Shown: piece by piece, positions 7,216 to 63,598 of the stretch
Layout of the letters: the number at the start of each line of letters is the position of its first letter
How positions within the stretch are numbered: position 1 is the stretch's first letter
Source of the DNA: Coptis chinensis
Lineage: Eukaryota > Streptophyta > Magnoliopsida > Ranunculales > Ranunculaceae
DNA: 64,000 bases
Assembly: GCA_015680905.1 (NCBI GenBank)
Contig: CM027381.1
Location: 86,143,501-86,207,500 of the forward strand
Direction of reading: 5' to 3'
The notes under the pieces: model-generated
Database searches by the model: none
What the model was told of the DNA's origin: nothing
What the model saw: the letters and a program-made list of their open reading frames with translations, nothing else
Translations under genes and position numbers: made by a program

Positions 7216-7239
7216 TCATTCAATATTATATATATTTTA

Positions 7240-35284: not shown

Positions 35285-38200
35285 GCTTTCGTAATATTAA
35301 ATGATACAGATATGCGGTGATTCTCCTGTTGGGACTCGAACTATATCTTAATATCGCTTCTGTGTAGAGTGCACAATTTTTCTTTATGCACTTTCTTCTT
35401 CTTGTTGGCGCAGTGTTTTGGTTCACAACGGCGGGGAGCATGGTGGACGCTATTGTGCTTTTATCAGGCCAAATCTCTCTCACCAGTGGTATGTAGCATA
35501 TTTTTGATACTTTATTCAATCATCTTTGCAGATTCTTTCCAGCTTTGAGGTGATGTACAACTACTTATATGAAACAGGCAGCGGCTTAGAATGCTCATGT
35601 TTTTGGTATAATAAGTAATATTATTCTCATTTTGCTTCTCTGTGTTGTGTATTTATGTTCATGTTTAAATAAAATTTTCCTTCACTTTTAAATGTTGTTG
35701 CATTTTATTTTTATCTTATAGATTTCTTGTCTTTTTATGCAATCACATACCAGTGCATGTGTACAGTTTCTTTTTTGTATTTTCACAATAGGTTGATGAT
35801 GAATTGGTAACAAAAGAAGATATGATAAGAGCATTAGAGGAACAATATGGTGGGGAGGAGGAGGTATTTCTATTAAATTTGATATTTTTTAATCGGTTTC
35901 TACTGTTAATGCTTGTGGTCATCGATTACTTTTTGTATTCTTCCCTAGCTAAATATGTTCTTTTTATGTCCAACAGCTACCTCAGACGAATGGGTTCAAC
36001 AGCACTCCATTTAAACTTACAAAATACTCGAATGCTTACATGCTTGTCTATATACGCAAAAGTGACGTAGAAAAAGTAATCTGTAATGCAGATGTACAAG
36101 GCATTGTTAAACCCGTGCGGGTAAGATTCATATTGCATACCATTGACTGAAATCTCAAATTTATATTTTCTTTTAGAAGGCTGAACTGAGCACATGCATT
36201 GCCATCTTACAGTTAAGGTTGAAGAAAGAACACGAAGAGAATGAATACAAGAAAAAGGAGGCTCAGATGCATACTATTATAAAGGTTTAGACTTGCCTTG
36301 GTTTCAGGAGTAATTGTAGTTTGTAGAAAAAGAATTGTGTATATTAAATGAATTACTTGTTAATATTTTGACAATTACTAGGCGTGATACTTTATTGCAG
36401 GTTGCACGGAATGAGGACTTTGTCGAACAGGTCGGAAGAGATATTTATTTTGATCTCGTGGATCATGATAAAGTCCATTGTTTCCATATGCCGAACCAGA
36501 CACCTTTCAGTAATTTCAAAGTACTGCGTCTGTTTTCGAGAGTTTGACATTTTTTAATCTATAGTGCTTCACTATTTCACAGTTTGTAGTAAGTTTTTTT
36601 TATTTTGTTTTTATTTTTATTTTTCAGAGATGCAATCTAGGGAGGACTTTACTGCAAGTAGAAGTTTTGATTCTAAAAAGAAGTTGAAGTTTTCCTTGCT
36701 TTTCAGGCCACTAAAGACTATAAATAAACTTGTAGGCATTCGCCAAATTGTTGGTTGGTTTATTAAACTGTGTGTTTGTGAGAAGGAAGAGTTTCTCCTA
36801 TTGTGAGCGTAGATTATTAACCGAGCGTAGATTATTATCCGTGTGATTACCAGTTACATAGAAGACCTTGTCATCCCCTTCTTCAAGATTGTGAGTATCA
36901 AGTCTCATAGTTGCTCACAACAATTATAGTGCAGTGTTGATAAAACCATACATTTCCCTAGTTAAAACGCACATTTTCTACCAGTTTAGTTTTTCAATGG
37001 CCAATTGCCACATTCAACCACTCTCACAGCATGCAACTTTGAGTCCATAACCTTCTTAAGAACCTGATATGCATATGCATGTCCCCACTAGGGTAATTAA
37101 ACTGGGACTAAATCAACTTAAGAGATATGTGGAGTGCAGGGGAATCACTGTGTCCAGCAATAGTACACATGAAGAACAGTAGAGTTTTTGTAACATAGAG
37201 TAGTTTGGTGGGTATTCACGAAGCATCCACCAGACTAGGTACACTGGGAAGCTCCTTTTTTTTTTTTTTGGAACAGCACAAGTTAGAGAGGGGGAACCGA
37301 TACACATAGGATGATGTTCCGTTCACTCCATATAATCACTGATTTTTCTTTTGTGGATCTATTTCTTTTAGGTTTTAATTAGAGATTTACTTGTAATAAC
37401 AACATATTGAAACGAAAGAAAAAGAACAATAATATTAGACTGAGTAACTAATTTTCTAGTGGTTTGTAGGGAAACGTGGCGAAGGAATTTGGTATACCAG
37501 TAAAGTTTCAAGAGGTTTTGGCTGTGGACAAAACGCCAAAATCTTACATATCGTCCACATCGGCAGTTGACGCCTGAGGAAGAGACACAATCTGTAACTT
37601 CCCTTCATTTTAATGCTTGGATTCAGATATGGTAAGACATTTATAGCTCAAGTATTGTAATTTTATTTTCTTGCATTGCAGGTTGGACAATTGAAGGAAG
37701 TATCAAATAAGGCTCACAATGGGGACTTAAAGCTGTTCCTAGAAGTAGAAGTTGGGCCGGTAATGGTTATTACCAGTTACGGAGTCGATTCTTAATTTTT
37801 GAGTATCCAACTCAAAGCCAGTTGGTTATGAGTGGAGTGGCCCCAGGGTTTATAAGTTGTAATCAAGGATTTAATTGTCTGCGCCTTCATGCATTTTCTA
37901 GGACTATGTGGATCTTAAACTTGTTTTACATGCCCTGGAACTCGTCTGTGTTGCCTGCCTTACTGATTTTCTTCATTACCTTGCAGGATTTGCATCCTAT
38001 TCAGCTCCCTGAAACGACCAAAGAAGATATTCTAATATTTTTTAAACTTTATGACCCTATAAAAGAAGAACTGATGTAAGTTATTTTTACTTACCCCTTT
38101 TCCACATTGTCACCCGGTATCAACGTTATATTATTAGACTAGCAGTTTTCCTATGGGAGAGGAAGATGGAGAAGGATGGAAAAGATGAGGACAGAAGGAA

Positions 38201-38415
38201 GATGGAGGATGGGAGAGGAAGATGGAGAAGGAGGAGTGGAAAAGATGAGGATTTCATTTAAACCAACCAAGTTGGTTTTGTCCCATAAGCCCCCTTCTCC
38301 CAAAATGTTAGTGGTAGTCCGGATTAGACTTTTTTCGTCTACTGATTGGATGGAGAAAAAAAGAGAAAAGGCTATTGATTTCCATTTGTCTTTTTTTGAA
38401 GGTTTGGTAGTTTGA

Positions 38416-39480
38416 AATTTGACAATTTAAAATGGCTGGGTCTACTCAACAAATAGCTGGGTTCGTTAGATTGTATTAAAATGAAAAAAGAACAAAAGAA
38501 TGGTGTGAGTGGATTGTGACAAGTTCACATCTCACTCAGAATCAGCACTAGGTCTTTACAAAGATTCAAAAAAGTGCAAAACACTATCTAAATCTATAGT
38601 AGGTACTCGCAGGATGCTCCCATCTTGTAATCCATGAAGGTCTACCAAGATATGTTCTTCCCATGTTGTCTGTAAGTGTGACTCCCTTTCTGGCAGCAGC
38701 ATCAGCAGAGAAGTTTGCTTCTCTCCAAATTGAAGTGATGACAAACTTTTGTAGCATATTTTGGACATGTTTCCATCTGTGCATCAAGGCCCATGGCAGC
38801 TGTGACGATCCAAAAGCCTGGACTGTTGCTTCAGAGTCTGTTTCAACCCAAATGTCAGACCATCCCTTAGTGGCTGCCAGTTCAAGGGCTTCAATGATTG
38901 CCAAACACTCAGCCCAGTAACTCGTAGTCACTCCCACTGCCCTGCAGTAAGTTAAGAGAAAATCTCCGTTCTGATCTCTGAAAGTAGATCCAATCCCGGC
39001 AAGTCCTGGATTACCCCTAGATGCCCCATCAGTGTTGACTTTGATGGTTGGAGCATTTGGTGCAACCCAGTTAACACTCTCTATTCGGGGAGCAGTTCTT
39101 AGTTTCCCTTGAATGCCCCAATCGCTGAGAATTTGAGTGTCTTCTGAGTACATGACAGCCTTGGATAAGTGAGAAGAACAATGAATTTGTCTTCTGACTT
39201 GTCTAAGGCATTTTAAGATGTCTGGCTTCTTGTCTTCAAACACAACCATGTTCCTATGTTTCCAAATGATGGTCATAGTGCCCACCACTGCCAAGGTCCA
39301 TAGTTGTTTGATTAGTGGACTTCTGAACTGAGAGAGTTTGATGGCATCATTTAACTTGTTGAAATTTCCTCTCATCTTAAACTTTTGTCTGAGCCAGCTC
39401 CATATCTGTAATGAGAAGGAGCATTCCCATATAAGGTGAGAATTTGTTTCTTCATTATTTCCACAAATAGAACTTTATCT
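38416..39480 (-). mobile_element. 5'-truncated LINE with intact zf-RVT and RNase H region
   Basis: On the minus strand 39474-38584 encodes SSICGNNEETNSHLIWECSF (zinc-binding zf-RVT) and then a plant LINE RNase H domain with all four acidic residues in context: VNTDGASRGNPG, AECLAIIEAL, ETDSEATVQ and NFSADAAARKG. The frame is open for about 297 codons to the stop at 38584; the tail to about 38416 resembles a LINE 3' UTR. It is truncated at about 39480, before the reverse transcriptase. It sits in an intron of the UBP relic, in antisense, at the place of a missing exon. The fragment at 1-446 carries the segment just before zf-RVT of a similar LINE. Confidence 0.85.
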
Positions 39481-39999
39481 TGGTACTTGGGTTAATCCGT
39501 TAATGTGCATTTTATTGCTATTGTAAAAGTTTTCTTTTTTTTAGTAGATGTGAAATTCTCTGAACCAACTTTCTTTATATGTTTTTTAGGAATTAAAGTT
39601 TGAGCCAAGTGTCATGTGTGAACCTATCCACAATAAGCTAACTTTTCGAGCTAACCAGGTATGTAGTATGCATGTGCATTTTGTTGGAAAAGTATGAGCT
39701 GCATAAAAAGTCAGGTGGTATCTGCCGTCATTGTTAATTTTTTTGCTATCCTTTACTTTCTGGTTGTTTTTTACAGCTTGGAGATGGGGACATTTTCTGT
39801 TTTCAGAAATCCCCTCCAGTTCAGTGTCTGCAACAGTGCCGCTATCCAGATGTCCCTTCATTTTTTGAATATGTGCATAATCGCCTGGTATGGTTGAGTT
39901 TGTTTTGAGATTTCATTTTTAAGATTAGTATATAAATATGGTGCATCATGCTCTTCTCTCATTAAGGCAATTTACTGTGTGATGGTTTTTAGTGAATAC

Positions 40000-40384
40000 T
40001 GTTACAAACCCTTCTTTTGAGTCCTAATTGGTTTATGTATTACTAGAGATTTCCTAAATATTTCTTGATTTCTATTTTTATGTTTTTAGCATAGGTTATT
40101 TTTAGGTTTATTTTTAGTTCCGAAAATTACATATTTAGTTTCTAAAATTGAATTAGAAGCCTAGCTTCTAAATTCATTGGTTCCTTAGCTATATATATTG
40201 AGTTGTATGCCTTTGGCCATACTTGGTTGATTGATAATAAACTTTGTGTTTGTGTGAGAAAGGTTTTCTCTCTTCGTGTGTGTGTATTCGTTTAATAAAT
40301 TGCAGGGCTTCTTTTGTGATTCCCTTCTCAATTTTGTGGGTTTCAAGTCTGGTTGTCGCTGCACAACAACCGTAGTGGCGCACA
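40000..40384. mobile_element. Possible solo LTR or TRIM in an intron of copy A
   Basis: Starts TGTTACAAACCC, has a TATATATAT-rich core and AATAAAC, and ends GTGGCGCACA. This resembles Copia-type LTRs in layout, but I found no matching 5-bp target duplication, so the limits are uncertain. Confidence 0.35.
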
Positions 40385-43300
40385 AGTAATTAGTTCGTGA
40401 TTCTTCAGCATCACGTTCATATCTTTATTGCACATAAGTGCATCACTTTGTTTTTAAGTTGATAAGGTATAGGTGTTAGCTATTAAATTTGCATGGCTTC
40501 CCGCGTGAATTTTGTTTTATGTAGTGCTCGATTCTGGTTATTTACATAACTACTAAAAACATGATATTCACATTTTTCGTAGAATATATCATATATGGGT
40601 TGTGAAATATAGGCATGGGCAACAGTGGCACGTCATTGAAAAAGAAACGGCTTGCTGAATTTCCCTCAGTAGTTCTGAACTGTGATTTTGTTATTGAAGT
40701 TTCATTCAGTATTCTCTTGACGTTTCATTATTGAAGTTACATTAAGTAACTCTGTAGTCGATTACTAGTCTTTGTTGAGGAGATTTTGAAGAAATTGGTA
40801 ACTGGGGATTCAGAGTGCAGGATTTGTTCTGTTGACCTAAAGTTTGATTAAGCAGAGGATTAGTGCGTTGATGAGATATTGTTTTGTACTACATAAATGA
40901 TAATTAGTGGCACAATGACGAGTTGATTCTGAGCTTCCACAATGTTGGTTAAGCACTTAATGTCACTTATAAGCATAACACATTGAATGGATTCTGTATT
41001 CATTTATTTTCAAAGAAGTGTTCTTAGGCTGTCCATACATATTTTAAGCATAATACACTTGATGTTTCTTTCCTAGGTTGTCCATTTCCAATCACTTGCG
41101 AAACCAAAGGAGGATGCTTTTTGTTTACAGCTGTAAGCAACTTACATTCCTACTGTTGTCATTATTATGGTCTGAAAATGTAATGTTTTTGGTTACATAT
41201 TTTATTCAATGTGTTCAAACCCATTGTCCTTTTCCAGATCAAATATTTTCAATTATGATGAGGTGGTGGAAAGTGTTGCTCGCCAACTTCTTGTTGATGT
41301 TTCATCAAAAATCAGGCTTACACCTCACAATTGTTACTCTCAGCAACCTGAACCAATTCCTATTAGGTACAGGGGTGCGGATCATTTGTCTGATATGCTG
41401 GTCCAGAACAACCAGGTGATACATCTATTAGTCTGGATTTCTGAGGCTGTCTGGATAACTGTTTTGTTTGAAAACTTATGTTGTGCACGACTGAACAAAT
41501 CTTGATGCACTCCATCCACACAGACTGCTCATTTATTGTACTACGAAGTATTGGACATTCCTCTACCAGAACTGGAATGCTTAAAAACGCTGGAGGTGTC
41601 CTTTCACCATGCGACAAAAAAAGAAGTAAGTATACGCACAATTGGCAGAACCTGGCTTGTTTATGTTTATTGTTCATTTAGTATGCCTGATCCTGGCACA
41701 TTTTCAGGTTGTGAAACACTGTATTACACTTCCAGAACATAGCACTGTGGCAGACCTGATAAGTGACCTAAAAAGAAAGGTAATTATTGCTACTGTTAAC
41801 TTTCGATCATCCAACCCAAAAACAATTGGCAATGAGTGGAGCTGCCTGAGGAGCATATATTCATATGTATTCTCCTGCGAAGCTTAAAATTCCCTACGTC
41901 GGATCATATATGCTATGTTCTCGTCCTTGTAGGTGGTAGGGATGAGATAGATTTCCTGAATGCATGTTTTATGCTATCTTCTCATCCTACTAGATTCTTA
42001 CTTGAAAGTTCTATGGTTCGCTTACACTATGCTTAATTTCTGTTTATTCATCATTTCCCCTCCTTATTTCCTGAGCTACCTAGAAACATCTTGATTGAAT
42101 TGCAAGTCAGGTATCCTGGTTGGTATTTTGTAACAGGTTGAGTTGTCTCATCCTAATGTGGAGCTTCGATTGCTCGAAGTTTTCTATCATAAAATCTATA
42201 AGGTTTGGAAACTTTTTATTTCAATTATTGTTGGTAATGTGCACACTGCCCATGTCATCTGAGAGCACAATTTTGCGAATGAAATCTTGCAGATTTTTCA
42301 AACTAGTGAAACGATTGAGAATATAAATGACCAGAACTGGACATTACGTGCAGAGGAGGCAAGTTATATTTTCTCCGTCGAACACCAAAATTTGTTAGCA
42401 GTCAATATGAGTCTTCAAACCCATATTGAGATATACGATTAATGCCACAAGGAGTGGGCTTACAAATTGCTCTGCCAGTGAAATTGTTTGATTGTCCGTT
42501 TATGTCATGCCACAGATTCCAGAGGAAGAGAAAAACTGTGGTACTCATGATCACATAATTCATGTTTACCATTTCACCAAAGACACCTCTCAGAATCAGA
42601 TGGTAAGTTTAAATATCAAGCACAACTTGAGTTCGGATAGGTACTTGTACACTTAAAATTTCTACTTTTTGGATGCTCTTGTTTTGAAATCTTGTAATGT
42701 GTCAACCAGCTGGTTCAGAATTTTTGCAAACCATTTTTGTTGGTCATTCATGATGGCGAGACTTTAGCTGATGTTAAAGTGCGTATTCAAAAGAAATTGC
42801 GAGTCCCAGTTCCAGACTTGTGCAAGGTATTTTTCTCCTGCATACTATTTATAAACAGTTAGAGACCTTAATTCAGTCTAAGTTCTACTCTGATGAATAC
42901 AAACTAAACATACATGCGTGCACATTCACAGCTTTCTATTGGCCTTTTTTTATATTGGCATTGGTATTGGTATGGACTTCTACAGTGTACGAGTATATGC
43001 AATTTATTCTGAATTTAAAGCAAATTCTTTTGGTCAGTGGAAGTTTGTATATATCTCATTGGGTCGGGCCGAGTACCTCCAGGACACAGACATTGTGTCT
43101 ACCCGTTTTCAGGTCTCTCTACCTGAACTTAATATTTTTACTTATATACTTTTCTTTCCATATAAATTGACATTTTTTGGTATGTAATGACAAATGCTTC
43201 TGTTTGCATTGTTTCACCCACAGAGAAGAGAACTTTTTGCTCCATGGGAGCAGTATCTTGGGTTGGAGCACTCTGATATTGCTCCAAACGGGCTTCATGC

Positions 43301-43891
43301 AGCTAATCAGGTTCAAACTTTAAACTATTAGGTTTTAGCAGAGAAGCTTGCTTTGTGACTTTGTACATAGCGCATTATTCTTGTGTGACGATTAAGACCC
43401 AATTTGATCCATTATGCGGATATTTGCCATTTAGTGCCTTTTATCATATAAACGATTTATTTTTTTTAATTGCCAAATATGACGAGAGTTTTTTTTCCCG
43501 TCGTGGAATTTTGCCAAATCCCATATTGCTAAAAAGGGTATAGAAAATACCCAGCAAAGGTTTCTCTTTGTCAGTCGAACAAGACGAACATTGACAAGTG
43601 GGTCTTAAATTGTTTCAACTTGACTTCATCCGAAGAGTTTGCTACTAGAAGATTTTTTGTCAGGGATGTGTTGGTCAGTTGCTTGATCAATAACTCCTTG
43701 TAGTCTACAAATCTTGAGTTCCTACTACTTCCCCTTTTCCCAACAGTTTCAAGAACGTAGGTTTGTGAGTTGATGAAGATTTGTTTGTTGATCCTTATTC
43801 TTTTTCGGAGGTTCTACTGTGTTCAGTTTGTATGAAGGTAGATGCATTTTCAATGTTTTGATTTCCTGTTGATTGTTGATTGTTGTGATAG

Positions 43892-45367
43892 GTCAAGAGT
43901 GCTCCGGTACTATGCAGAATCATCCTGCTGTTGATCTTCCATCATCAAAATTCACTTGGACTATTAGAAACTTCTCTAGGTTGAACATGAAGAAGCATTA
44001 TTCTGAGTCTTTTCAAGTCGGCAGTTATAAATGGTATACTAACTGCTCTCCTTTGTTTGATTTCTTTTGCAATCCTAGAGCTATTTGATATAATCAGCTC
44101 TTTTTAGTCTCTGACCATTGTGTGTTTTTGATAGGCGACTGTTGATTTATCCTAAGGGGAACAATGTAGATTATTTGTCAATGTACTTAGAAGTAGCACA
44201 TGCACCTGATTCGCCTTGTGGTTGGAGTAGAAGTGCCCAGTTCAATTTGTCAGTGGTTAATCAAGTATACAGTAAATACACTGTGCAAAACGGTTTGAAA
44301 TTTCCCCCCTGCTCTGCATCTCTTTCTTCCGAAAAACTCTGTACGGGTATATGTACCCTTCTATAATTATGTAATTGGTGAATGAATATTTGTTAGAATA
44401 AATTGTTAATTTAGTACTGCCGCCGTTTTTTTCAATAGCTATTATAGACTGCGAAGTAGTTGTAGTCTGCAATTAATGCATATTGTTTCCCAACCTTGGT
44501 ACATTTCCATTTTTTTTTTGTGAAATCACGTAATACACAACTTATTTTCATCTGCAGTAACATTACCTTGTCCTTAACAAATTGAGTCCTTAATCTTCAT
44601 CCAGACACACAACACACATTTAATCTACGAGAGAGTGATTGGGGATTCACATCATTCATGCCTCTCAATAATCTGTGTGACCCTAGTAGAGGGTTTCTTG
44701 TGGATGATACTTTGATTTTTGGGGCGGAGGTAGACGTTAGTGAGGTTGTGGAAGGTAAGTATTTCTCTGAGTCATATACAAACTTTTAATCTGAAACGTG
44801 ATTAAGGAATAATAAATATAGTGTTTCTGGAGTCATAACAAATGAAGCTGCGGACTACTTTGCATCCCTTTAATTTACAACTCTACTGAAGAGAAGCTGG
44901 TTCATAACCCCCCCCCCCACACCCCAAGATACACTCTATGGTGTATAATGATATGATAGAGACAGTGCACATTTGTTTTGTTAACTAATACTTGTGGCAG
45001 TCTGCCTATAGCCAAAAACGATGAATATATTCTCATCGAAGAGTTGAATTTGTGAATCGGTCGAGTTTTACTTTAAGGTTTTGATTTGCTGTCATTTTTT
45101 TGATTGTTGATAAGCTCAAGCAGGCACTGTGGTCATTCAGCAGAATAAAGAGGGTGTACCTGAAGCTGGGCCGAGTAACAGTGCAACTCAGCAGGGCAGA
45201 CTTTCATCATGTGCGATATGTTTGGATGCTCCAATAGAGGGGGCTTGCATCCCTTGTGGTCATATGCCTGGATGCATGTCTTGTTTGAGCAATATTTAAG
45301 TTAACTCCTGGGGTTGCCCAATTTGTCGTGCCAAGATACAGAAGGTTGTGAGGATCTACACTGTTTA
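43892..45367 (+). pseudogene. MATH domain joined to XBAT34/35-like RING tail (copy A), in-frame TAA in RING
   Basis: Exons 43892-44033, 44135-44292 and 44605-44754 encode a complete MATH domain closest to UBP12/13: FTWTIRNFSRLN, YKWRLLIYPKGNNVDYLSMY, GWSRSAQFNLSVVNQVYSKY, TFNLRESDWGFTSFMPL. The fourth exon 45124-45367 encodes the C-terminus of an XBAT34/35-like E3: EAGPSNSATQQG and the RING finger CAICLDAPIEGACIPCGHMP GCMSCL, then, after TAA at 45297-45299, WGCPICRAKIQKVVRIYTV and the normal stop. All four exons join in phase (G|GC at the MATH-RING junction). The stop removes the last Cys pair of the RING. In UBP12/13 MATH is N-terminal, so here it either belongs to the 5' end of a third, truncated UBP copy or has been relocated. 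Exon 43224-43310 ends in phase 0 while 43892 needs phase 1, so direct splicing from the UBP part would shift the frame. Confidence 0.85.
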
Positions 45368-46141
45368 AGCGGTCCTTTAAGCTATGCCATATGCTGAAGC
45401 AGGTTCTTGAGTATTGTAGACGCACCTTAGTCAATCACAGACACCGGTGTATCTCTACCCTATATATTATATATGATAGCCGGTTGGAACCACATTTCTC
45501 AACCGAATATGCTATTTCTAATCTCTCATGTTTTACAATTTAGAAACACATTCCTCAATTATTATAGTAAGATCCCTCCGTTTTAAGTAATTTATAAAAA
45601 AAACTCTCTCACCTCACTAAAAAAATTAGAATTAGTTTTCATATTATTTAAAATAATTTAGAAAACCTCCTTCACATCACTGAAATTATAATCAACACCT
45701 TCTAATGTTTTTATATTATTTTTTAAAGATGTTAAGAGCGACAGGTTTATGCGTAACACGGTACGCATACTTGTATATATATATATATAGATAGATAGAA
45801 TCATAGAAAGCATGAGAGATGTAACAATATGATGTATAGGCTCTTAGTTCTCAGCATATATATGAAAAATACTGATTGAATTAGTTAATACTTGATTATG
45901 CAACTAAAGAAATATGTCCTTCATAAAGTGATGCTCATTTTCATTTCACTTGTTCTCTTCCAAAACTTTAAAAATTGTACTTGGGTTTTGTTTTGTTTTC
46001 TGCAACTCTAGACAGACTTTTGGTTGATAGCAATGAAAATTTAGTTATCAATTTTCCATGCTCTCATAGTTGAAGACAAATTCAGTAGATTTTCAATTAG
46101 CTTCTTTATCAGGTCATCACCATTTCACAATTAATCCCGTA
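45368..46141. other. Intergenic, no gene seen
   Basis: AT-rich sequence with a short TA and TAGA microsatellite at 45775-45799. No gene. Confidence 0.5.
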
Positions 46142-46485
46142 TAAGAGCATTTGCAATGCAAGTCATAACTTTCACCCCCTCTATCACCGCCACCTCCTCA
46201 CTTTTCACCCCCTCTATCACCAACCCGGTGATAAACAAGGTGAAGCTGTGCAATGCAAAGGTGATAAAAAACATCTCGGACGGGATGTTAGATTCCGTCT
46301 GGAGTTTTTATACGAGACGGAATGTAACATCCCGCCCGATATTTTATAACGAGAGGCGGGATGTAACATCCCGCCTCGATGGCTCAATACCAACAGACTT
46401 AACAGCTCCATTTTCACTTCATTTCCACCAAAATTCGATTTTGTAGCCTCCATTCACAACCTTTGAACACAAATTTCCATTCATA

Positions 46486-51510: not shown

Positions 51511-51559
51511 ATGAGGGAGAAGGAGGCTTAAAATTAAAATGGAAATGAAAATGTATTTC

Positions 51560-51965: not shown

Positions 51966-52000
51966 AAATACATAAGCTTAGTTAGAGCCTAGAACCACCT

Positions 52001-53106
52001 CTAGACGTATTTCAGCTTGTTGTTGCTTTCGATTATAAAAGCGGTATCGGGATGGAGGACACTTGTATCGGTCGCTAAAATCTTAGCTTCATATTGCATC
52101 TTTTGAAACCCGATTTTTTCCAATTGAACCTGATTTTTTTTCTGCTTGAATCCGATTTTTTTCTTCTCTTGCCATCACAGTTCTTTGACCATATGCAAGT
52201 TCCCTTTCCCTAAGTTCTAAGCATTTTTGTGTTTCATTTGCATCTGTGCAAATGTATCCTCTAAACGTGTAAAGTAACCCTCCAACATACCAAATGATTT
52301 TTTCTTGGTTCCTTTTGGACTTGGCTTTCTTGATCCAAGAGGGCGCTCCCATTTCTTTTGGGCGCTCTATTTCTTGAGAACCCTCCAATTCAACTCCACC
52401 AACACTTGGTGAATTAGAAGTTGAATCTTCACCATCATTTTGCGACCTTTTTCCTTTTGGGGCGGCTTGACCTTGCCTCAAAAACGCTTACTCCACTTTG
52501 GATTATCCTTGAGTATAACGTAACAATGATCAATCAAAAAAAGCCGATTTTTTTTCTTGTTGGTTGATGCGTCATCCTTGCCTCGGACAACTAAAAAAAA
52601 ATGGTGGTAATTAGACTAAAATAATCACTAGGACTAAGATAATTAAACTGCAATAATAATTAGACTAAGATAATAATTAGACTAAGACTAAAATGGAAAT
52701 AATAAATACACTAAGATAATTAGGACGAAGACGGAAATAATTAGACTAAGACTAAGATAATCAATAAATTCCAAATTGACAACGTTGTAATTACCGGCTT
52801 TGTATTGTTGTACCACTTGCATGTCGAGCCTCCACGCATTCACAATTGCAACAAATTTGTTCATCATTTTTGAAATATATTTCCACCTTCCGCTAATTGA
52901 ATCGGAGACCTATCCGACCCGTGCTTGATTGAACTCGTTTGTTACACGATTCCAAAATCCTTTTGCATTTTGGAAAGCACCAACAATAAGTCTTACACTA
53001 ATTTTTTATCCAAGCAAGACATAGAGCTTGATCATCGGACATGCTAAAGTGAGCTCGCTTTTGCTTGAGTGCTACCACTTGCTTGAGATGCTTGAGTTGA
53101 TGCCAT
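52001..53106 (-). pseudogene. Myb/trihelix-like second protein of the PIF/Harbinger element
   Basis: The start ATG at 53106 gives MASTQASQASGSTQAKASSL. Frameshifted pieces follow that resemble the DNA-binding part: DQALCLAWIK, FWNRVTNEFNQA-like text, RWKYISKMMNKFVAIV-like text. Then comes the open part 52481-52089 with SWIKKAKSKRNQEK, CLELRERELA and MAREEKNRIQAEKK, and a tail after another shift (MQYEAKILATDTS ... LKYV) to TAG at 52001. This is the usual Harbinger accessory protein that recruits transposase to the ends, often labelled GST-T3-like or NAM-associated in plants. Family assignment is from pattern memory. Confidence 0.72.
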
Positions 53107-53504
53107 TTGATATTTGGTTTTTTTAAGAACTGATTTTAAAGAAGAAGAAATATGATATATGATTGTTGGAAGTGTGAGTTGAAATGAAACAAATGTTGTA
53201 TATATACCAAAGTTTTTTATTTTGACCGTTTTTTGACCGTTCTGACTTTTTGACCGTTGGTAGCCGTTAGGACTCCGGACGGGATGTTGGATTCCGTCTG
53301 GTGAGTTTTGTAATCCAGACGGAATCCAACATCCGATATAGAGTTAACAAGTCGATGAAAACTTCGGTGGTTGGTTTCACCTCGTTTTGAACTGGGGATA
53401 ATTATCACCTTCATTATCACCCTGCATTGCACAGCAGTTTTGGACCCAAGTAGGTGATAATTATCACTACCCCCTCTCTATCACCTGCATTGCAAATGCT
53501 CTAA

Positions 53505-53871
53505 AGTGCTTAGTTATTACTGCCAATTAGTCAAAAAGGGCTTAGGGTATCACCAATGGGCCTGGATACGGGCCTCTATCTCCAAATTTAACGGAACTTA
53601 GTGAAAAACTGTTTCCAAAGCGGCCCTAAATGGGCTCAAATTTATCCATCCTGATATATGTCTTCATTTCCATGGATGTTTATAAAGACATGACTTCTCC
53701 GTTGGAACACCCATCGATATAGAGTTTTAGCTCCTCCTTATTTGCCGCCACCGGTAACCATCATTCATTTTAAAAAAATAGCCCAAACCTCAAAAACACT
53801 CTCTCAACAAAAAATGAGAAAAACTGCACCAAAATACCTCCTGAAAAACCTTCGCTACTCACTCTCCACCA
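53505..53871. promoter_or_regulatory. Upstream region of the second PPR gene
   Basis: About 370 bases between the transposon and the PPR start. The ORF beginning at 53742 overlaps in another frame and is a shadow. No clear TATA box. Confidence 0.35.
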
Positions 53872-55742
53872 ATGGGCATCCTCAAAACCCTCTCTCTTCA
53901 CATTTCACCCCTTTTCTCAAAACCCATCTCTACATCCCCACTTCCACCACCAGAATGGATAGAACCACTAACAGATATATCAGACCTTATAATAAACACT
54001 AAAAACCTTAAACCTTCACCTTGGGTAACACGTATAGTCACTATACTACTCAACTCTACAACGAATACCATTGAATCAAATCTCGATGAATATTGTAGTA
54101 AGTTTTTTATTAAGTTATCTCCTACTTTTGTTACTTATGTACTCAAGTTAGATAGTATTAAGCAGAAGCCTGAACTAGCTTATACATTTTTTACTTGGTG
54201 TGGTAGACAGAGAGATTATTTACATAGACTTGATACTTATGTTGTTTTAATTGAGATATTAGTGTTGGAAAAGGATGTAGAGAGGATTAGAGGACTAGTT
54301 GAGGAGATTAAGAGGAAGGGATTGTTAATGAATGTTATTTCGACGAATGCTTTGATTAAAAGCTTTGGGGTCTTGGGTATGGTTCAGGAATTGTTATGGA
54401 TTTGGCGTCGAATGAAGGAAAGTGGGATTGAGCCTAGTTTGTTTATGTATAATTTTTTGATGGATGGGTTTGTGAATTCGATGTTTGTTGAGAGTGCCGA
54501 GAAGGTTTTTGATGCTATGGAAAGTGGGAAAATTTTGCCTGATGTTGTGAGTTATAATATTTTGATTAAAGGGTATTGTAAGGTTGGAAAACACGTAAAG
54601 GGTTGGAGAAGTTAAAGGAGATGGAAGTGAAAAGGGTTTTCCCGGATAAGATTACTTATATGACTTTGATTCAGTCGTGTTATTCGGAGGAGAATTTGGA
54701 TTCTTGTTTGCGTCTTTTTAATGAGATGGAAGAGAAAGAGTTGGAGATTCCATCTCATGCTTATAGTTTAGTGATTAGTGGATTGTGTAAAGCCGGTAAA
54801 TCAGTTGAAGGGTTTTCTGTTTTTGAAGGTATGGTCAGGAAGGGAGTGAAACCAAATGTAGCGATTTATACCGCTTTGATGGATTCGTATGCTAAGAATG
54901 GTAATGGGGATGAAACTATGAGGCTTTTCCAGAAAATGAAGGATGAAGGGTTCGAACCCGACGAGGTTACTTATGGGGTTATTGTTAACAGTTTATGCAA
55001 GACTGGGAAGTTAGACAATGCGGTGGAGTATTTCAATTTCTGTAAAGAGAGCAGTGTGCCAATTAATACCATGTTTTATTCTAGTTTAATTGATGGTCTT
55101 GGTAAAGCTGGGAGAGTGGATGAAGCGGAGAAGCTTTTTGATGAGATGGTTGACAAAGGATGCACACGAGATTCTCATTGCTACAATGCACTTATCGACA
55201 CTTTTGCTAAGTGTGGAAAGATGGATGAAGCATTAATGCTGTTTAAGAGAATGGAGGAGGAGGGTTGTGATCAGACTGTTTACACGTACACCATACTCAT
55301 TAGTGGATTGTTCAAAGAACACAGAAATGAAGAAGCATTGAAGTTTTGGGAGATGATGATTGATAAAGGTATCACACCTACACCTGCTTCTTTCAGAGCT
55401 CTTTCCACTGGGCTTTGCCTTTCAGGCAAAGTTGCAAGGGCTTGTAAGATATTAGATGAGTTAGCACCCATGGGGGTTCATCTGGAGGCGGCATATGAAG
55501 ATATGATCCATGTCTTGTGCAAAGCAGGTCGCATAGAGCAGGCTTGCAAGTTGGCTGATGGAATTGTCGATAGGGGGCGTGAGATACCTGGAAGAGTTCG
55601 TACTGTTTTCATCAATGCCTTGAGAAAATCAGGTAATATTAACTTGGCCATCAAATTAATGCATAGTAAGATAGGAATAGGCTATGAAAGATGGCATGGT
55701 ATCAAAACCCGAGTCAAGTTTCGAGTTCTCTTAGATAATTGA
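53872..55742 (+). CDS. P-class PPR protein (At1g03560-like), single-base frameshift at about 54588-54591
   Basis: Two frames, 53872-54615 and 54603-55742, form one intronless P-class PPR protein of about 620 residues. Seen: PEWIEPLTDISDLI near the N-terminus, then regular 35-residue repeats (YNILIKGYCKVGK, YSLVISGLCKAGK, YTALMDSYAKNG, YSSLIDGLGKAGR, YNALIDTFAKCGK, YTILISGLFKEHR) and a conserved C-terminus LSTGLCLSGKVARACKILDE and LMHSKIGIGYERWHG. The layout matches the mitochondrial PPR At1g03560 as I recall it. The break is at GGAAAACACG: one more A in the A4 run would keep the second frame from KVGK into LEKLKEMEVK. Everything else is open, so a sequencing error in a homopolymer, or a very recent mutation, is likely. 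If real, the protein ends after about 247 residues. P-class PPRs stabilise, cleave or help translate organelle RNAs. Confidence 0.88.
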
Positions 55743-55849
55743 ACTTGAAGTTTCTATATGTTTGTATTTGTATATTACGTTTCTAAAAGTGAAATTTGGT
55801 TCCTTCTTATTATCTGTGTTTCTGCTCCAGTTGTTTTACCTTTTTAAAT

Positions 55850-56565
55850 GCATATTTTTTTTATAAGTGATTTTTATTAAGAGGGTAGCGCACATCACAA
55901 AATTACAGTAAAAAAAACTAAAGCGTAAAACAGTGAGTGAGGACCTCACTTGTTTACATAGAAAAAACTAAAATAGACAAACAAACTACCCAACAAAGAC
56001 CACCGGCATCACTCTCCTGCTAAGACATTCGACCAATCGAAAACAAGGTCTTTGAATCTATAATTCCTTCTTTGATATGTAGTGGACATCCAATGCTACA
56101 ATAGTCCTTCTGAATTGATAACCCTTTGCCCCTGAAGATATGGTTGTTTCTTGTTTTCCACGGCATCCAAATAGTTGCATACGGTAATAGACGGCATATC
56201 TTGTTTGTATCTTCTCCTTTGTCATAGTGATAGAAAATTTTGTAAAGATTCAGCTTGAGCAAGTAGTGGAAAAGCTATTACCCTTGGTTGTGTCAGCTCT
56301 GCCCACACCTCTAAAGAAAAAGAACAGTGTAAGGAAAGATGACAAATATTCTTATCAAATGTGTCACACATTGTACATACTTGAGACACCATAGTTCCCC
56401 TGTGTTTGAGTACATCAGCAGTGTTAATGCAACCCGAAATGGCCTACCAAAATAAAATTTTCACCTTCAAAGAGATGGGAACCTGCCACACCAGTTTAGT
56501 GGGAAAAGAGAGGGGTTGGTACTCTCTTGGTCTCTACCTTCAGGCTTCAGCAGTTAGAATACCAT
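55850..56565 (-). mobile_element. Decayed LINE 3' fragment
   Basis: Minus-strand text EYQPLSFPTKLVWQVP, CINTADVLKHRGTM, CTMCDTFDKNICHLSLHCSF and LPYATIWMPWKTRNNHIFRG follows the end of LINE ORF2 with its zf-RVT Cys/His pattern. Stops and at least one frameshift are present. A run of A on the minus strand at about 55851-55862 marks a probable poly(A) tail, just past the PPR stop codon. It is a different LINE family from the one at 38.4 kb, judging by the linker text. Confidence 0.8.
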
Positions 56566-57480
56566 AGAAAGTGCTCACCGAGAAGATACCATCCTTCGTT
56601 GAGCACCACAAACACCTGTCTTCCTGGTCAGTTATCTCCACCGTATCCAAAAGCATGGCCAAGTTGGCATATTTCTATTTCTATTTCTTCCCCTACTTTA
56701 AATATTTTCAGTTCCAAGTTTACAGACTTGGGTCTTCTACAGTGAAAACACCATCTCAGTCACTCATCTCATTAATAAAATTGTTGTTCACCTAGCAAGA
56801 CATAGAACTTAGCGCTGTTTCTGAAATCATTTTTTGTACCACATAAATAGTAAACTATCCAAATTTCTCAAATTTCTAAGAGAGTTCGTGTGCTGGATAG
56901 GTGTATAGGATGGCGATTTCTCACAAGGCTTAGGAGAGAAGTTTCCCGCCCAACATAGAAACTTTACTGACCAAGTTGTCTAGTGCCGGTACAGAGTCTC
57001 AAATCTAACATCTTTGTGGTTTTACTTGTCAGAAATCATTCCGAATATGAACTATTTAAAACTGGAACTCTGTTAGTGTGGAATCTGGACAGGAATGGCT
57101 TTCTTAGGGACTTTTGTTCACCTTTCCATTACAATGGTGATTATTTTCAATTTACCTAATTGGATGAACATTTCTAACTTTCGTATCTCGTCCTAGATAT
57201 AATAGCAGTTCTAGGTTCCTTATCAATAACTTTGGTGCTGGTAGCACTCTAAAAGCTAAGGACAGCTTCAGGGCATATGGGCCTCTATTTTCATATTTGA
57301 AGGAACACCTCACCACAGACTTTTATATTTGTCATCCTTAAAAACGAGAGATTACCACCTTTGAAACAAAAACACCCCCCTAGCAACCCAAAAACAAGCT
57401 CCCAATTGACTACCCAGTCCCTATCAAAACAATAAAATTTCTACTTGTTTGAGTCCCCTAATACACCAGCTTTTTACTCT
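56566..57480. other. Intergenic, no gene seen
   Basis: No recognised exon or repeat end. Confidence 0.45.
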
Positions 57481-57492
57481 AATGAAGTTTTG

Positions 57493-57656
57493 GACACTGC
57501 ACGGGAGATGTCATTGGACAATCACTCACTCCTAAAGGACCAGGCTTGCCTTTTCCTGCTGCACTATTAAGCCAGGATGATATGAACCTGTCAAGACCTT
57601 TCAAGAGGGTCAGGGAAGAAGAAGAAGAAGAAGAAACAGAACACCTATGGGTAAGG
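57493..57656 (+). other. Unidentified coding-like segment
   Basis: One frame gives GHCTGDVIGQSLTPKGPGLP, then FPAALLSQDDMNLSRPFKRV and REEEEEEETEHLW, which reads like real protein (basic patch followed by an acidic run) and ends at a GGTAAGG donor-like site. I do not recognise it, and it is not UBP. It may be a first exon acquired by copy B or a chance frame. Confidence 0.3.
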
Positions 57657-57743
57657 ATCATATTGTACATACCAGTTAATGGCATTTTTGAATGTTCATT
57701 TGGTAAATTGCTTTAGCTGAGCACGTGCATTGCCATCTTGTAG

Positions 57744-60700
57744 GTGAGGTTGAAGAAAAAACAAGAAGAGAAGAAACACAAGAAAATGGAGGCTCAACTT
57801 TGTACCATTATAAAGGTTTATACTTTCTCTTGTTTTACTAGTGACTGTAGTATTTTGAAAATTAGATAAAATTGGTGTTTATTCAATGAGTTATCCAATT
57901 ACTTCTTTTAGTAGTTTGGAAACTGCTAAGCTTATCTTTTATTTTAGGTTGCACGGAATGAGGACCTTGTCAAACAGATTGGAAGAGATTTTTATTTTGA
58001 TCTCGTGGATCATGACAAAGTCCATTCTTTTTGTGTACAGAAGCACATCTCTTTCATTGTTTTCAAGGTATTCCATTTATTTTAAGAGTTTGGCATTTCC
58101 TCATTTTAGTGCTTAACAATTCTAGTGTTTTGTTGTTTGAAGCTTAGAATGTCTTGATTTCCAGATATTTAATACAGTAAGTGAATTTTAGGAGTGATTT
58201 AAACTCTTGATAGCTTTATTTATTTTCTAATAACTTGATGAAATGAAGTTAGTATGTCGATATCATTGCATCATTATATATATTTTAAAGGTTTGGCAAC
58301 TATTAAGAATCCATTGTATATGCTTGTTTGGTAAAAAAAAAACTTAGAAACCATTATTGCATAATTGATTTTGCACACAAAAATACTTGTTTGGTAAAAA
58401 AACAATACATTAAAGAATGAGAAACAAAAATTCTGGAGCTTTCGCTTGACATGAGTTACCTTATTTTATTCATTTTTTAATTTTGTGAAGTTTTCTCTTT
58501 ACAATTTTATCTCAGTCAGTAATTAACTCAAGTAGTGTTTGGTATCATCTCTTCCATAAAGGTTAATATCAAAATTAATTACGCTAAAATTGATTTTATA
58601 AACATAATTAGTTCTACTTAGAATGGTTTATGGCCCCTAAGTTACTACTTTTTTTTATCAATTTATGCGTAAGTTGGTAGGGGAACTCCAAGAAAATCTA
58701 TTTGATTGGGCACGTGCTACTCCATTAGTCCATTGTTTGGGTGTAAAATTTGTTAATGTTTTTCACTTTTTCTACAAAAATCAGATACAGTTTGTTGTTG
58801 ATTTTATTTTTCAATATCAGATATAACCTTGTTAGTTATTATGGTTATAGAATGAACTGATGGGAAATGATTATAGATCGAATTTTTAATTCTGAAATTG
58901 TTTGCAGGAAGAAGTTGAAAAGAAGTTTGGTATACCAGTTCAGTTTCAGCGGTTATGGCTGTGGGCAAAGCACCAAAATCATACTTATTGTTCATTAACA
59001 GCCCAGGAGGAGATACAATCTGTAAATTACTTATGTCATACCTTTTCCTATGCGTATGCGCGCGCTATTGCACTTTAACAATTTAAAAGTTCTATGGAGC
59101 TGAGGGATTCATTTGCTATCCCTCAAAGTTTCTAAGACGCGGAATTTTATAGTTACAATAATTTAGTTCAACAATTCATAGGGTTAAGAGTTTCCGACCT
59201 TTGTTTTTTTTGGTATGGGGTTCCAACAAGCGAGAGTAAGAGTAAGTAAGTTCTAAACGATTTTTGTTTAGAGCTGTAAGCACTTACATTTATGTTGTTG
59301 TCATTATCATAATTTGAATTCTATAAGATCTAATTGGATATCTTATTTGGGTGTCCAAACACATTTTCCTCGTAAATTATTAGATCGAACCTTTTCAATT
59401 ATGATGAGGTTGTGTAAAGAGTTGCGGGCGAACTTGGAGTTGATGATCCATCAAAAGTCAGGCTTACGGCTCACAATTGTTACTCTCAACAACCTAAACC
59501 AACTCCTATTAGGTACCAGGTTGTGCATCATTTGTCAGATATGCTGGTCCATTACAGGAAGGTGGTTCCATCTCTGATTCTGAATCACTGAGGCTTTTTG
59601 TATTTTTGTTTTTGCTGAGCAAATGGTTGAATATTTTGAGGGGAATTCTTCCATACAGACTTCTGATATCTTGTATTATGAAGTATTGGGCATTCCTTTA
59701 CCGGAACTGCAAGTGTTTAAAACGCTGAAGGTTGCCTTTCATCATCCGACAAACATGAAGTATGCCTAATACATACACTTCAGCTTTTATACCTTTGTTG
59801 TTTATCTAGTATACGTAAACCTGACTCATTTTCAGGTTATTCTCAGGATTAAACTGCCAAAGGAAAGCACTGTGGGGGACTTGTTAAATGACCTGAAAAG
59901 GAAGGTACTTATTGCTACAATGTGCACATTTTATGCAATGTTATCATCCTAGTAGGTAGTTGGGGCGAGGCAATTGAACTGAAGACAAGAATGATTATTG
60001 CTACGATATGCACATCTTATGCTAGTTGGTAGCAGGGATGCTTAGATTATAATTCTGTTAAGATGGTTCTTATTCTGTAACAGGTTGAGCTGTCTCCTCC
60101 TAATGCGGAGCTTAGATTGCTTGAAATTTTCTATCATAAGATCTATAAGGTGGGAAACCTTTATTTTGGTTACAATGTCAGTGTTTTGGCGTCCATGTCA
60201 AAAGATTGAGAAATTAAATTCTTGCAGATTTATCCTGCTACTGAAAAGATTGAGAATATAAATGACCAGTACTGGACGTTACGTGCAGAGGAGGCAAGTT
60301 GCATTTTTTTCGTTGGACACTAATATTTGCTTATGCGATTTGAGATCTCAAATCCATATATTGGGAAGTTTTATGTGCATTTTTCCCTTGGACCCTATTA
60401 TTTGTTGGTGAAGCAATTTGAGTCCTCTAATCTTTATTTTTGGAGATAGTTGAGTACATTGAAGGTGGGGTTACAGATTTCTCTGCTAGTTAGATTGTTT
60501 GATCCTTCTTATATGTTCTATCACAGATTCCAGAGGAAGAGAAGAACCTTGGTGCTCATGATCGCCTAATTCATATTTATCATTTCAGCAAAGACATCTC
60601 TCAGAATCAGATGGTAAGTTTAGATATTAAGCACAGCTCAAGTCCAATTGGTACTTGTGCAGTGATGAATGGCAATGTTCAACCTCTTGAATGTTTGGAA

Positions 60701-61570
60701 TCTTTTCATATTTCAATCAGCTGGTTCAGAATTTCGGCAAACCATTTTTTCTTGTCATTTATGAGGGTGAGACTTTAGCTGAAGTTAAGGGGAATATTCC
60801 AGAGGAAGAGAAGAACCTTGGTGCTCATGATCGCCTAATTCATATTTATCATTTCAGCAAAGACATCTCTCAGAATCAGATGGTAAGTTTAGATATTAAG
60901 CACAGCTCAAGTCCAATTGGTACTTGTGCAGTGATGAATGGCAATGTTCAACCTCTTGAATGTTTGGAATCTTTTCATATTTCAATCAGCTGGTTCAGAA
61001 TTTCGGCAAACCATTCTTTCTTGTCATTTATGAGGGTGAGACTTTAGCTGAAGTTAAGGTGCACATAAATAAGAAATTGCTTGTCCCAGATGAGGAGTTC
61101 TCTCAGGTACTTTTCTCCTGCACACAGTTGATTAGAGACCATCTTATTTCATCTTAGTTTGAGTCGCTCAATACGAAGTAAAGATACATCTATATCACAT
61201 TATTTGGTAACTTCGCTTAATTACTGTGAAATTTGACTTTTCTAATGTTTGATGCGATGAAAATCTAAATTTAGAACTCATTATTTTGGCCAGTGGAAGT
61301 TCGCTTTTTTGTCATTGGGTCTCCCTGAGTACTTCGAGGACACAGATATTGTGTCTATTCATTTTCAGGTCTGTCTATCTGAACTTTATATTATGCATCC
61401 CCTGTTTCTTGGCTTATGTATTTCTTTTATTTTCTGTGAGTTCTGCTTGATAAATGCCTTGTTTCCTATGGTGTTGCCTACAGAGAAGAGAGATGTGTGG
61501 AGCATGGGAGCAGTATCTTGGGTTGGAGCACTGTGATAGTACTCAATCATGGGCTTCTGTATCCAATCAG
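57744..61570 (+). pseudogene. UBP12/13-like deubiquitinase relic, copy B
   Basis: Exons recognised: 57744-57815, 57948-58067, 58908-59021, 59378-59571 region, 59659-59759, 59836-59904, 60084-60149, 60228-60293, 60527-60613, 60990-61106, 61294-61368, 61484-61570. They match copy A exon by exon, including a GC donor after 60293 and homologous intron sequence before 57744. Missing relative to A: everything before VRLKKKQEEK, and the exons between EEIQS and the SNLFNYDEVV exon. Lesions: TAA at 59415-59417 where copy A has Glu (VVE); exon 59659-59759 is one base short; a 269-bp direct duplication of exon 60527-60613, its intron and most of the next exon (60527-60795 and 60796-61064). Where copy A has a frameshift (near 37511) copy B is intact, so the two decayed independently after duplication. 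No catalytic domain is present. Confidence 0.9.
60527..61064 (+). repeat. Near-perfect 269-bp tandem duplication in copy B
   Basis: 60527-60795 and 60796-61064 are the same sequence, with one difference noticed (CATTTTTTC versus CATTCTTTC). The unit spans one whole exon, one intron and most of the next exon, and joins as GTTAAGGGGAAT|ATTCC in the first copy. Near identity shows it is far younger than the copy A/B duplication. Confidence 0.95.
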
Positions 61571-61620
61571 GTTCATAATAATTTGTTTGAACAGTAATTT
61601 GATATGTATGTGATGTATCT

Positions 61621-61931
61621 TGTTGGCGGAAGCTTCAACAATGGATAAACATCAATAAGATTTAATAAATCAAACACCTAAATCTAGGGTTTAAACCTTC
61701 AATCATGAAGAACAATTCTTTTAGAATAAATATTCAATAACAACCATCTAACAACAATGAAGGCCTAGATGCCTTTATATAATAAACTTTGTTCCTAAGT
61801 CTATTTAGAAACCAAAATAGAAACCTTACTAAATAACCTAGATCTAAAACAAATAGGAAACTCTTCTAACTTAATAAGACTACTAATAATATAATTAGAA
61901 CTATCTAATATTGTTCCATGCTCATGCATCA
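61621..61931. mobile_element. Possible solo LTR or TRIM
   Basis: Starts TGTTGGCGGAAGC and ends CATGCATCA; on the minus strand it has a TATATAAAGG box in the middle. Flanks TATCT and GTATG do not form a clean duplication, so the limits are tentative. Confidence 0.35.
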
Positions 61932-63123
61932 GTATGTCTACATGTGTACTTCATATATGTGTGTCCCAAATTCACTTTTACCTTTTTATTTTTTATTTTC
62001 TAATTAAAATCTGTATTAGTCCTTAGTTCCACACTTCCACACGGATTTTGTCTGATTTGTGTAGTTTTGAATTTATAATAATTTATTTTATCAATTATGT
62101 AAAGACTTGCTTTTCTCCCATTATTGCGGACTTTTGCCAAATGTTGGATGGGTAAAAATGCACAGAATATATCCCGAAAGAGTTTCATTTTTTGTAACAA
62201 TGACCCTCCATATTTTCAAACAATATGCATAATTCGAGTCCTAGCTTATTTTCTGTTGATGCTAAGTTTAGTAGTTATTTATTTTGGTTTCCAAATTGGA
62301 AATTCATGTTCTCCAAAGAATCTCTTGTATAAATAAGGCCTGTGGCCAAATCAAATTGTTGTTTTTAGAAAAATTTATTTGTTTTGGATGAAGATGTGTT
62401 GTTTTAGGGTCTATCCCGTTGCCCTTAAATTAGGGATTATTTATATTTGGTGACGTTTTTGGACTTGCTTCTGCCTCTGAAACCCATCCGAATCCATGTC
62501 GGTCCCGCGAGGCATCTACCTCTTGTTTCGCATACATGGGCACATGCTGCTGCTAAAATTTCAGGTTAGAATTTCTGAACATTAAAACAAATTAACAAGA
62601 AGTTAAACCCCAAAAAAGAGATGATGAAACAAATTGCATTGAGGAAAAGAAAAAAAAAAAAGAAAAATAAAACCATGAAACTGTTGTAATGACCAATAAG
62701 ACTTGACTGTAACATCATCAAGACCAGTCCTATACTATTATGAAGGAACTTTAATCTTGGCCCTTTCTTAGTTATCATCACAGCCAAACTGTCCTAGCCA
62801 GTGCATCAGCACCCATCTTCGAGAATGTTAAGGTAGTTAAGTAGGCAAATTGTTTCAGTTGTATTGGGTTTTGATGAATTTTACTACTATCATCTTGGAA
62901 AATTAAGATGGCCACACATGATTCTTGTGTCATTACTCTACATGCAATTGGCAGTGACAAGCTTTTGGGGGTTGAAGTTGGTGATAAGTCTGCTAGAAAT
63001 AACTTGTATAAATGTTTTTCTGTTGGCAAGAAAATGTTGGTGTACTCAAATTTTGACTTGTTCCACCACTGCAGGTGATGGATTGAACCTTACCACTTAA
63101 TACCAATGCTTCACTTATTCCAG
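61932..63123. other. Region between UBP part and RING part of copy B, no exon recognised
   Basis: About 1.2 kb of AT-rich sequence with an A-rich tract near 62645-62662. If the two parts were ever one transcript this would be intron. Confidence 0.4.
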
Positions 63124-63598
63124 AGACTGCATCAACAACTAACATTGAAGATTTAGAGTTAGCCATGGCTATTAATGCCTCAATTCATTCCGCCATGGAG
63201 GAGAGAACACCACATCCAAATGCACACATGAGCTCTGTAATCAGTCACACAAATGATTGCATCAACTCTTTGGACACCAACTCTAGTCAGAGTGATTCTG
63301 GTCCGCTAAGACGAGCTGCAGCTCCTTTAATTGGTACTAGCAGTAGATTGTCGTACCAACCTGCTCAAGACACATACAATGGAGGGGATGTGTGTGAAGC
63401 TGGGCCCAGTGACAGTGCTACTCAGAGCGGACCTTCCTCATGTGTAATGTCTGGATGCTCCTTTAGAAGGTGCTTGCGTCCCTTGTGGTCATATGGCTAG
63501 GTGTATGTCTTGTTTGAATGAGATCAGAGCTAAAAAGTGGGGTTTGCCCAGTCTGTAGGGCCAAGGTAAAGCAGGTGCTAAGGATTTATGCTGTGTGA
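63124..63598 (+). pseudogene. XBAT34/35-like E3 C-terminal exon with RING (copy B), two frameshifts
   Basis: After an AG acceptor the exon reads TNIEDLELAMAINASIHSAM, EERTPHPN, a low-complexity Ser-rich linker and EAGPSDSATQSGPSSC, the typical C-terminal part of XBAT34/35-type ankyrin-RING E3 ligases. The RING should follow, but two bases are missing around 63446-63449 (the ICL of CxxC) and one T is extra around 63543-63545 (WGCPVC). With those allowed, all RING Cys/His positions and the end RIYAV before TGA 63596-63598 are there. Copy A has the corresponding exon from about 45124 with other lesions. No ankyrin repeats are nearby, so only the tail was joined to the UBP part. Confidence 0.85.

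Follow-up and report, generated by a model that had tools for sequence, protein, structure and literature searches.

The 64,000-nucleotide stretch of Coptis chinensis DNA analyzed here, which we call the window (C5:86143501-86207500), holds two places on the plus strand, copy A at 35.3-45.4 kb and copy B at 57.7-63.6 kb, where post-catalytic exons of a UBP12/13-type deubiquitinase are followed by the RING exon of an XBAT-like E3 ubiquitin ligase. This arrangement, reported in a first-pass annotation that drew on the letters alone, is upheld in both stretches by exon reading and by Pfam. A domain search recovered USP7_C2 (1.2e-46), USP7_ICP0_bdg (1.8e-27) and the RING (PF13920, 8.2e-13) in the pieces of copy A, and the RING (PF13920, 4.5e-8) in copy B. 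The two copies also match as DNA, in blocks that are 72-78% identical. Below, the UBP tail exons are numbered t1-t18.

Two damaged UBP-RING arrays in the window

Copy A begins with the last two exons of the USP catalytic domain (35415-35866, plus), which contain the His-box GGEHGGRYCAF, with Arg at the position of the catalytic His, and DDELVTKEDM. Tail exons t1-t6 (35977-38075, plus) follow, with a frameshift in t4 near 37,512. Exon mapping did not find t7 in copy A; at its expected place, the list of open reading frames has a 296-codon frame on the minus strand (38584-39474), which we take to be the RNase H of a long interspersed nuclear element (LINE)-type element. Exons t8-t18 (39590-43310, plus), which cover the rest of the ICP0-binding region and USP7_C2, have no called lesion and end in ..WEQYLGLEHSDIAPNGLHAANQ in phase 0. 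The start of the UBP last intron (43311-43761, plus) is 95.5% identical to that of F6, the full-length fusion on C6 described below (positions 1-487 of the F6 intron against 1-481 of the copy A intron), and the homology to F6 stops at a breakpoint near 43,761, beyond which the sequence matches MATH-RING copies such as L016. The gene model places three MATH exons here (43892-44033, 44135-44292 and 44605-44754, plus), with an ATG at 43912 and a Pfam match to MATH_2 (3.7e-36, at 43.9-44.75 kb) between the UBP tail and the RING; the RING exon of the same MATH-RING gene (45115-45368, plus) is interrupted by a TAA at 45,297, ahead of the last two zinc ligands.

Judging from this exon map, copy A is a second-order chimera, in which a fusion-type UBP tail ending in its last intron is followed by a separate MATH-RING gene. 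The simplest route to it would be a deletion between the fusion tail and a neighboring MATH-RING gene; matches to a MATH-RING copy lie about 13 kb downstream of F6 (C6:96965-96967k). The order and strand of the exons in the window would also fit a copy A that itself encodes a UBP tail-MATH-RING protein. We consider this very improbable: the t18 donor is in phase 0 but the MATH acceptor is in phase 1, splicing the two gives a frame (VKSAPVLCRII..) that ends at a stop after 30 codons, and the MATH-RING part has its own ATG, from which the relative L016 is open. Because this splice is out of frame, copy A yields no tail-RING protein by way of it.

Copy B, by its exons, is genuinely a UBP12/13 tail fused to an XBAT35-like last exon that consists of a UIM-like segment and the RING. 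It starts with a remnant (57460-57650, plus) that resembles what follows an Agenet domain in the C7 copy and ends in ..TEHLW, where canonical t1 ends in ..AEHLR. Partly damaged tail exons t2-t4 and t10-t18 follow (57744-61570, plus, by exon mapping), interrupted by a stop in t10 and frameshifted in t11; exon mapping did not find t5-t9, and the queries used found no upstream MATH or USP exon. Self-comparison and exon mapping revealed a 264-base tandem duplication over t15-t16 (60527-61059, plus; 99.6% identical). The fused exon (63076-63598, plus) has TGA as its codon 4 and two RING frameshifts, near 63,447 and 63,544. Two open stretches ahead of this RING, x1 and x2, were considered as exons and rejected, the x2 region being intronic in F6 and in the XBAT35-like gene, with the frame closed there.

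Both copies are broken, as had been stated. The exons described are present in each, but the two do not share one exon order: copy A has the MATH exons and the breakpoint, and copy B starts at t2. Nor does the shared order prove that a fusion preceded the duplication, as had been argued, given that the RING of copy A belongs to the MATH-RING gene and the splice to it is out of frame. The exon maps, the breakpoint and the synonymous divergence (dS) all contradict the idea that A and B are duplicates of a single fused gene.

The fused family and its exon junction

Searching one assembly of 935.6 Mb with the RING exon gave 36 matches with E values of 0.001 or below, of which 26 have 62-100% identity. 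We examined 21 RING loci, namely 19 with flanks taken from the family list and the two window copies, and classified them by exon mapping in the fetched flanks; among the matches with at least 62% identity, two at C6:96965k, one at C6:25354k and one at C2:74052k (three places) fall outside this set, and all whole-genome counts are lower bounds. At 6 of the 21 loci, a UIM-RING exon is preceded by UBP tail exons on its own strand (L010, here B7; L022; L023; L024; L025, part of F6; and copy B). Eight have the order MATH-RING or MATH-MATH-RING (L011-L017 and copy A, the latter also with the UBP tail ahead), and five have a UIM-RING exon whose fetched flank shows no UBP exon (L009, L018, L019, L020 and L027). 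The others are an ordinary XBAT-like gene (L026) and a weak fragment (L021).

The full order is found in F6 (L029 plus L025; C6:96978100-96998099, minus), where MATH, the USP domain (UCH, 1.1e-50), t1-t18 and a 168-codon UIM-RING exon occupy 11.5 kb of one strand (C6:96978568-96990108), the MATH and then the UCH exons following the canonical UBP12/13 order. A frameshift at the start of MATH, a stop in the USP domain and frameshifts in t7, t13 and t18 damage F6, and its UIM-RING exon is clean. L024, with MATH, USP and the first tail exons followed by UIM-RING, has several lesions, including the same frameshift at the start of MATH, which is perhaps a query error at that point. B7 (C7:10826391-10834.6k, minus) comprises t2-t18, with USP7_ICP0_bdg and USP7_C2 regions in Pfam and two frame lesions called at t10, and a clean UIM-RING exon. 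In L022, modelled from t16 through the fused exon, both t18 and the UIM part are frameshifted; in L023, t18 is shortened and the UIM part damaged. The translations of F6 and B7 contain all eight C3HC4 ligands, and PF13920 scores above the cut-off; the Pfam scan, which covered the window pieces and the B7 protein, gave no ankyrin match in those pieces. The proposal that a fusion exists and predates its duplications is borne out by the six loci and by the full order in F6.

Likely parents of the fusion are still present in the genome. The canonical UBP12/13 genes, C7u (C7:10639399-10649055) and C8u (C8:86738896-86748755), have no lesion called in the fetched exons; C7u is the nearest canonical relative, and the C7 RING cluster comes to within 44 kb of it. 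Both end in ..NQ, a phase-0 intron and the C-terminal exon NRHxYEKPVKIYN. In the XBAT35-like gene (L002, C5:93.547 Mb, examined as a 3.1 kb piece), the last exon starts with VMNPSL... The fused junctions read ..NQ/VMNTSL.. in F6, ..NQ/VMNPSL.. in L022 and ..NQ/VMDRSL.. in B7, all in frame, and V M D stop in copy B, so that three of the four junctions read with a complete t18 are in frame. In F6, L022 and B7, the UIM-RING thus takes the place of the C-terminal exon that C7u and C8u keep. As read from these sequences, the UBP last exon (..NRHAYEKPVKIYN) is swapped in frame, by way of two phase-0 introns, for the XBAT last exon with its UIM-like segment and C3HC4 RING. Of the XBAT intron ahead of this exon, about 165 bases remain recognizable in F6, L022, B7 or copy B, and L009. 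An assembly error that joined unrelated exons is hardly credible as an explanation: nothing was found for it, and diverged versions of the tail plus UIM-RING are present on each of C5, C6 and C7.

The fused loci have two main forms, F (the F6 type) and B (B7 and copy B). The tail tree joins the two at 99% with codons and with nucleotides and the UIM-RING tree agrees, so that a single fusion event appears likely. The UIM-RING tree, with 62% (codon) and 57% (nucleotide) for F plus B, supports this only weakly, however, and two further findings fit independent capture of the XBAT35-like last exon by each form into the same UBP intron. The UIM-RING dS between F6 and B7, 0.83, is close to that of each against the XBAT35-like gene (0.84-0.96) and exceeds the tail dS of 0.56, and blastn gives no alignment of F6 with B7 in the intron preceding the XBAT part. 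We nevertheless regard two fusions as decidedly unlikely, because the same UBP intron and the same XBAT exon would have to be involved twice, the trees agree, albeit weakly for UIM-RING, and both forms share an internal deletion of the XBAT exon: F, B and the MATH-RING forms all lack some 60 residues that precede the RING in both XBAT-like genes. A claim that F and B share the fusion breakpoint to the base was dropped, as multiple alignment did not fix the blastn hint.

Loss of the active site and probable constraint on the fused frame

Alignment with human USP7 shows GATSY in F6 for the canonical GATCY (C7u), a Cys to Ser replacement, and GGRYYAF for GGHYYAF (C7u and C8u), a His to Arg replacement, with the FDD motif kept; we take the aligned Cys and His to be the catalytic positions of USP7. 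Ser occupies the Cys position in both fused copies with a Cys box (F6 and L024), and Arg the His position in all three fused copies read (F6, L024 and copy A). A search with the MATH3-Cys-box exon gave four nearly full matches, which are F6 and L024, both with Ser, and the two canonical genes, with Cys read in C7u. The suggested conversion of a deubiquitinase into a ligase is supported by this loss of the catalytic Cys and His as far as the deubiquitinase is concerned, and the ligase activity is a prediction. According to the available text of PMC6502913, USP7 requires its C-terminal peptide for full activity. The last exon lost in the fusion is probably the plant counterpart of that activating peptide; since the fusion removes it, the loss of deubiquitinase activity may date from the fusion itself.

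Ratios of nonsynonymous to synonymous divergence (dN/dS) were calculated by the Nei-Gojobori method with 100 bootstraps, on alignments from a custom spliced aligner in which stop codons and poorly matching columns had been masked, which tends to lower dN. Between F6 and B7, dN/dS is 0.28 (0.21-0.39) in the tail (511 codons) and 0.22 (0.12-0.36) in the UIM-RING (153 codons); if the fusion was single, all of this divergence would be post-fusion. For comparison, the ratio is 0.04 between the tails of C7u and C8u, 0.21 between F6 and C7u in both the USP and tail regions, and 0.39 (0.23-0.71) between the tails of F6 and copy A. When the tail distances are split arithmetically over three branches, the F branch has about 0.31 and the B branch about 0.27. 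Neutral simulation from the canonical gene over 923 codons gave on average 10.5 stops at d=0.10 and 20.6 at d=0.24, and none of 500 runs at either d produced one stop or fewer, whereas F6 has one. The low dN/dS between F6 and B7 and a number of stops below what long neutral decay would leave make it probable that the fused frame remained coding for a long time.

Several observations weigh against this reading. An intact full-length fused copy was not found: all six fused loci among those examined in this one assembly carry lesions or truncations in the part read, contrary to the expectation of the first-pass annotation that intact relatives might exist elsewhere in the genome, and the start codon of F6 was not located. 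Between B7 and copy B, dN/dS is 0.79 (0.51-1.47) in the tail against 0.16 (0.03-0.57) in the UIM-RING; the B-form tail has therefore been free to drift lately. Within the UIM-RING exon, the shortage of stops is not significant, with simulated means of 2.1-3.3 and one stop or fewer in 14-38% of runs. Because so few stops are simulated there, the argument for constraint on this exon rests on dN/dS, and the open frame by itself was discarded as proof.

The damage to every fused locus, the contrast between the B-form tail and its RING part, and the five of 21 RING loci with UIM-RING and no UBP exon in the fetched flank could also mean that a fused protein never existed, the UBP pieces and the XBAT RING exon having come to lie side by side by segmental duplication and the RING being constrained in separate transcripts. 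We find this unlikely. It would not account for frame and splice sites preserved at three of four junctions, for tail dN/dS between F6 and B7 and between F6 and copy A with upper bounds below 1, or for a single stop in F6 where about 10 or more are expected under neutrality at d of 0.10 or more. Moreover, one of the five solitary copies, L009, seems to descend from a fused copy, for it retains some 600 bases of the B-form intron outside the XBAT part.

On balance, we think it probable that the arrays in the window are remains of a chimeric gene family specific to this lineage, a UBP12/13-XBAT35 fusion that was coding for long, spread, gave rise to offshoots and decayed. A UBP12/13 duplicate, its nearest canonical relative now at C7:10.64 Mb, would have recombined, last intron to last intron, with an XBAT35-like ankyrin-RING E3 gene, whereby the UIM-like and RING exon would have replaced the UBP last exon in frame, and the catalytic Cys and His would have been lost. 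The predicted product is a substrate-binding USP7-like scaffold, with MATH and the USP7 C-terminal domains, that ends in an E3 RING and would ubiquitinate former clients of the deubiquitinase. After a long period in which the fused frame was presumably kept, copies would have spread, recombined into Agenet-tail-RING and MATH-RING offshoots, and decayed. We infer the E3 activity, expression and targets of this product from gene structure; an intact RING in several copies and conserved client-binding domains form the basis for a still unproven E3 function.

Offshoots, related systems and implications

The MATH-RING offshoot is best seen in L016 (C6:97.37 Mb), an intact 227-residue frame from ATG to stop, with MATH and then RING and with GT donors and AG acceptors at three introns. 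Copy A carries a gene of this type, with the same ATG and one TAA. The RING exon of the MATH-RING copies has a dN/dS-like ratio of 0.45 against the consensus of eight copies (16.5 nonsynonymous and 10.5 synonymous changes), and pairwise dN/dS for MATH2 lies between 0.09 and 0.80; constraint on these genes accordingly appears weak to moderate. L013 was considered as a complete MATH-MATH-RING gene, its seven exons aligning free of lesions, but its start codon was not found and the claim is kept for L016 only. Upstream of the MATH-RING copy L014 on C8 lies a remnant of tail exons t15-t18.

In the B form, a third gene was pulled into the shuffling. B7 and copy B share the t1 end ..TEHLW, in place of the canonical ..AEHLR, behind similar sequence, and in B7 an Agenet domain (1.3e-8) precedes it. 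Copy B is probably a broken Agenet-tail-RING offshoot. The Agenet domain remnant stands directly before the t1 end of the B form at L030/L013, at about C7:10834.6k-10835.3k.

Three F-type solitary UIM-RING exons, L027 (C2:70771827), L020 (C8:29958093) and L019 (C9:71493310), share 0.8-1.6 kb of upstream sequence that is 88-95% identical and extends past the part matching F6, as if the exon were carried by a mobile or duplicated segment.

Elsewhere in the window, open frames at 10082-11573 presumably encode a CHY zinc finger-RING protein (MIEL1-like), and those at 22488-28075 (minus) what we take to be a plant endo-beta-mannosidase. Self-comparison shows an AT-rich array of diverged repeats, mostly 66-88% identical, at 4278-7878.

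Compared with UBP12 and UBP13, the fusion retains MATH, the USP fold, the ICP0-binding and USP7_C2 regions and the exon structure through ..NQ, but its catalytic Cys and His are replaced and the C-terminal peptide exon is a UIM-RING, and the B form lacks the MATH and USP exons. It has the last exon of XBAT34 and XBAT35, with the UIM-like segment and the C3HC4 RING, and the same splice acceptor, whereas ankyrin repeats were not found in the fused pieces scanned and the residues before the RING are deleted. For the XB3-like family, the accessible part of PMC3596331 gives at least two ankyrin repeats as the criterion.

Deubiquitinase-type and E3-type modules also meet in one chain in A20/TNFAIP3, which combines the two activities through an OTU domain and zinc fingers and is an active deubiquitinase; the fusion instead joins a RING to a USP7-type domain that has lost its catalytic residues. 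The TRAF and TRIM37 families have an N-terminal RING and a C-terminal MATH. The MATH-RING offshoot pairs the same two domains in reversed order, MATH and then RING, and its MATH is UBP12-like. TRAF-family and TRIM37-family MATH proteins belong to animals and were not found in green plants, according to the available text of PMC10218331. In the accessible parts of two surveys of plant MATH proteins (PMC10218331 and PMC3664471), the only mentions of RING come in the introduction, where partner domains of MATH are listed, and, in one survey, in the title of a reference. Among the literature matches listed, titles and the beginnings of abstracts do not mention a plant UBP-RING or MATH-RING gene.

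We advance more tentatively, as a possibility short of even chances, that exon replacement turned a USP7-type deubiquitinase into an E3: with the activating peptide exchanged for a UIM-RING, the catalytic residues would have become dispensable and then been lost, and clients would have been marked rather than rescued. Intact versions may still work in relatives of this species, and the MATH-RING genes may be a living plant counterpart of the TRAF ligases. The fusion should then bind the clients of UBP12/13 and promote their ubiquitination instead of removing it. The likely parents, the junction, the lost active site, the offshoots and the decay are all kept in this genome, which makes the path datable and testable. 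If the reading is correct, a swap of the tail with the client-binding domains kept would flip the sign of a regulator in a single step.

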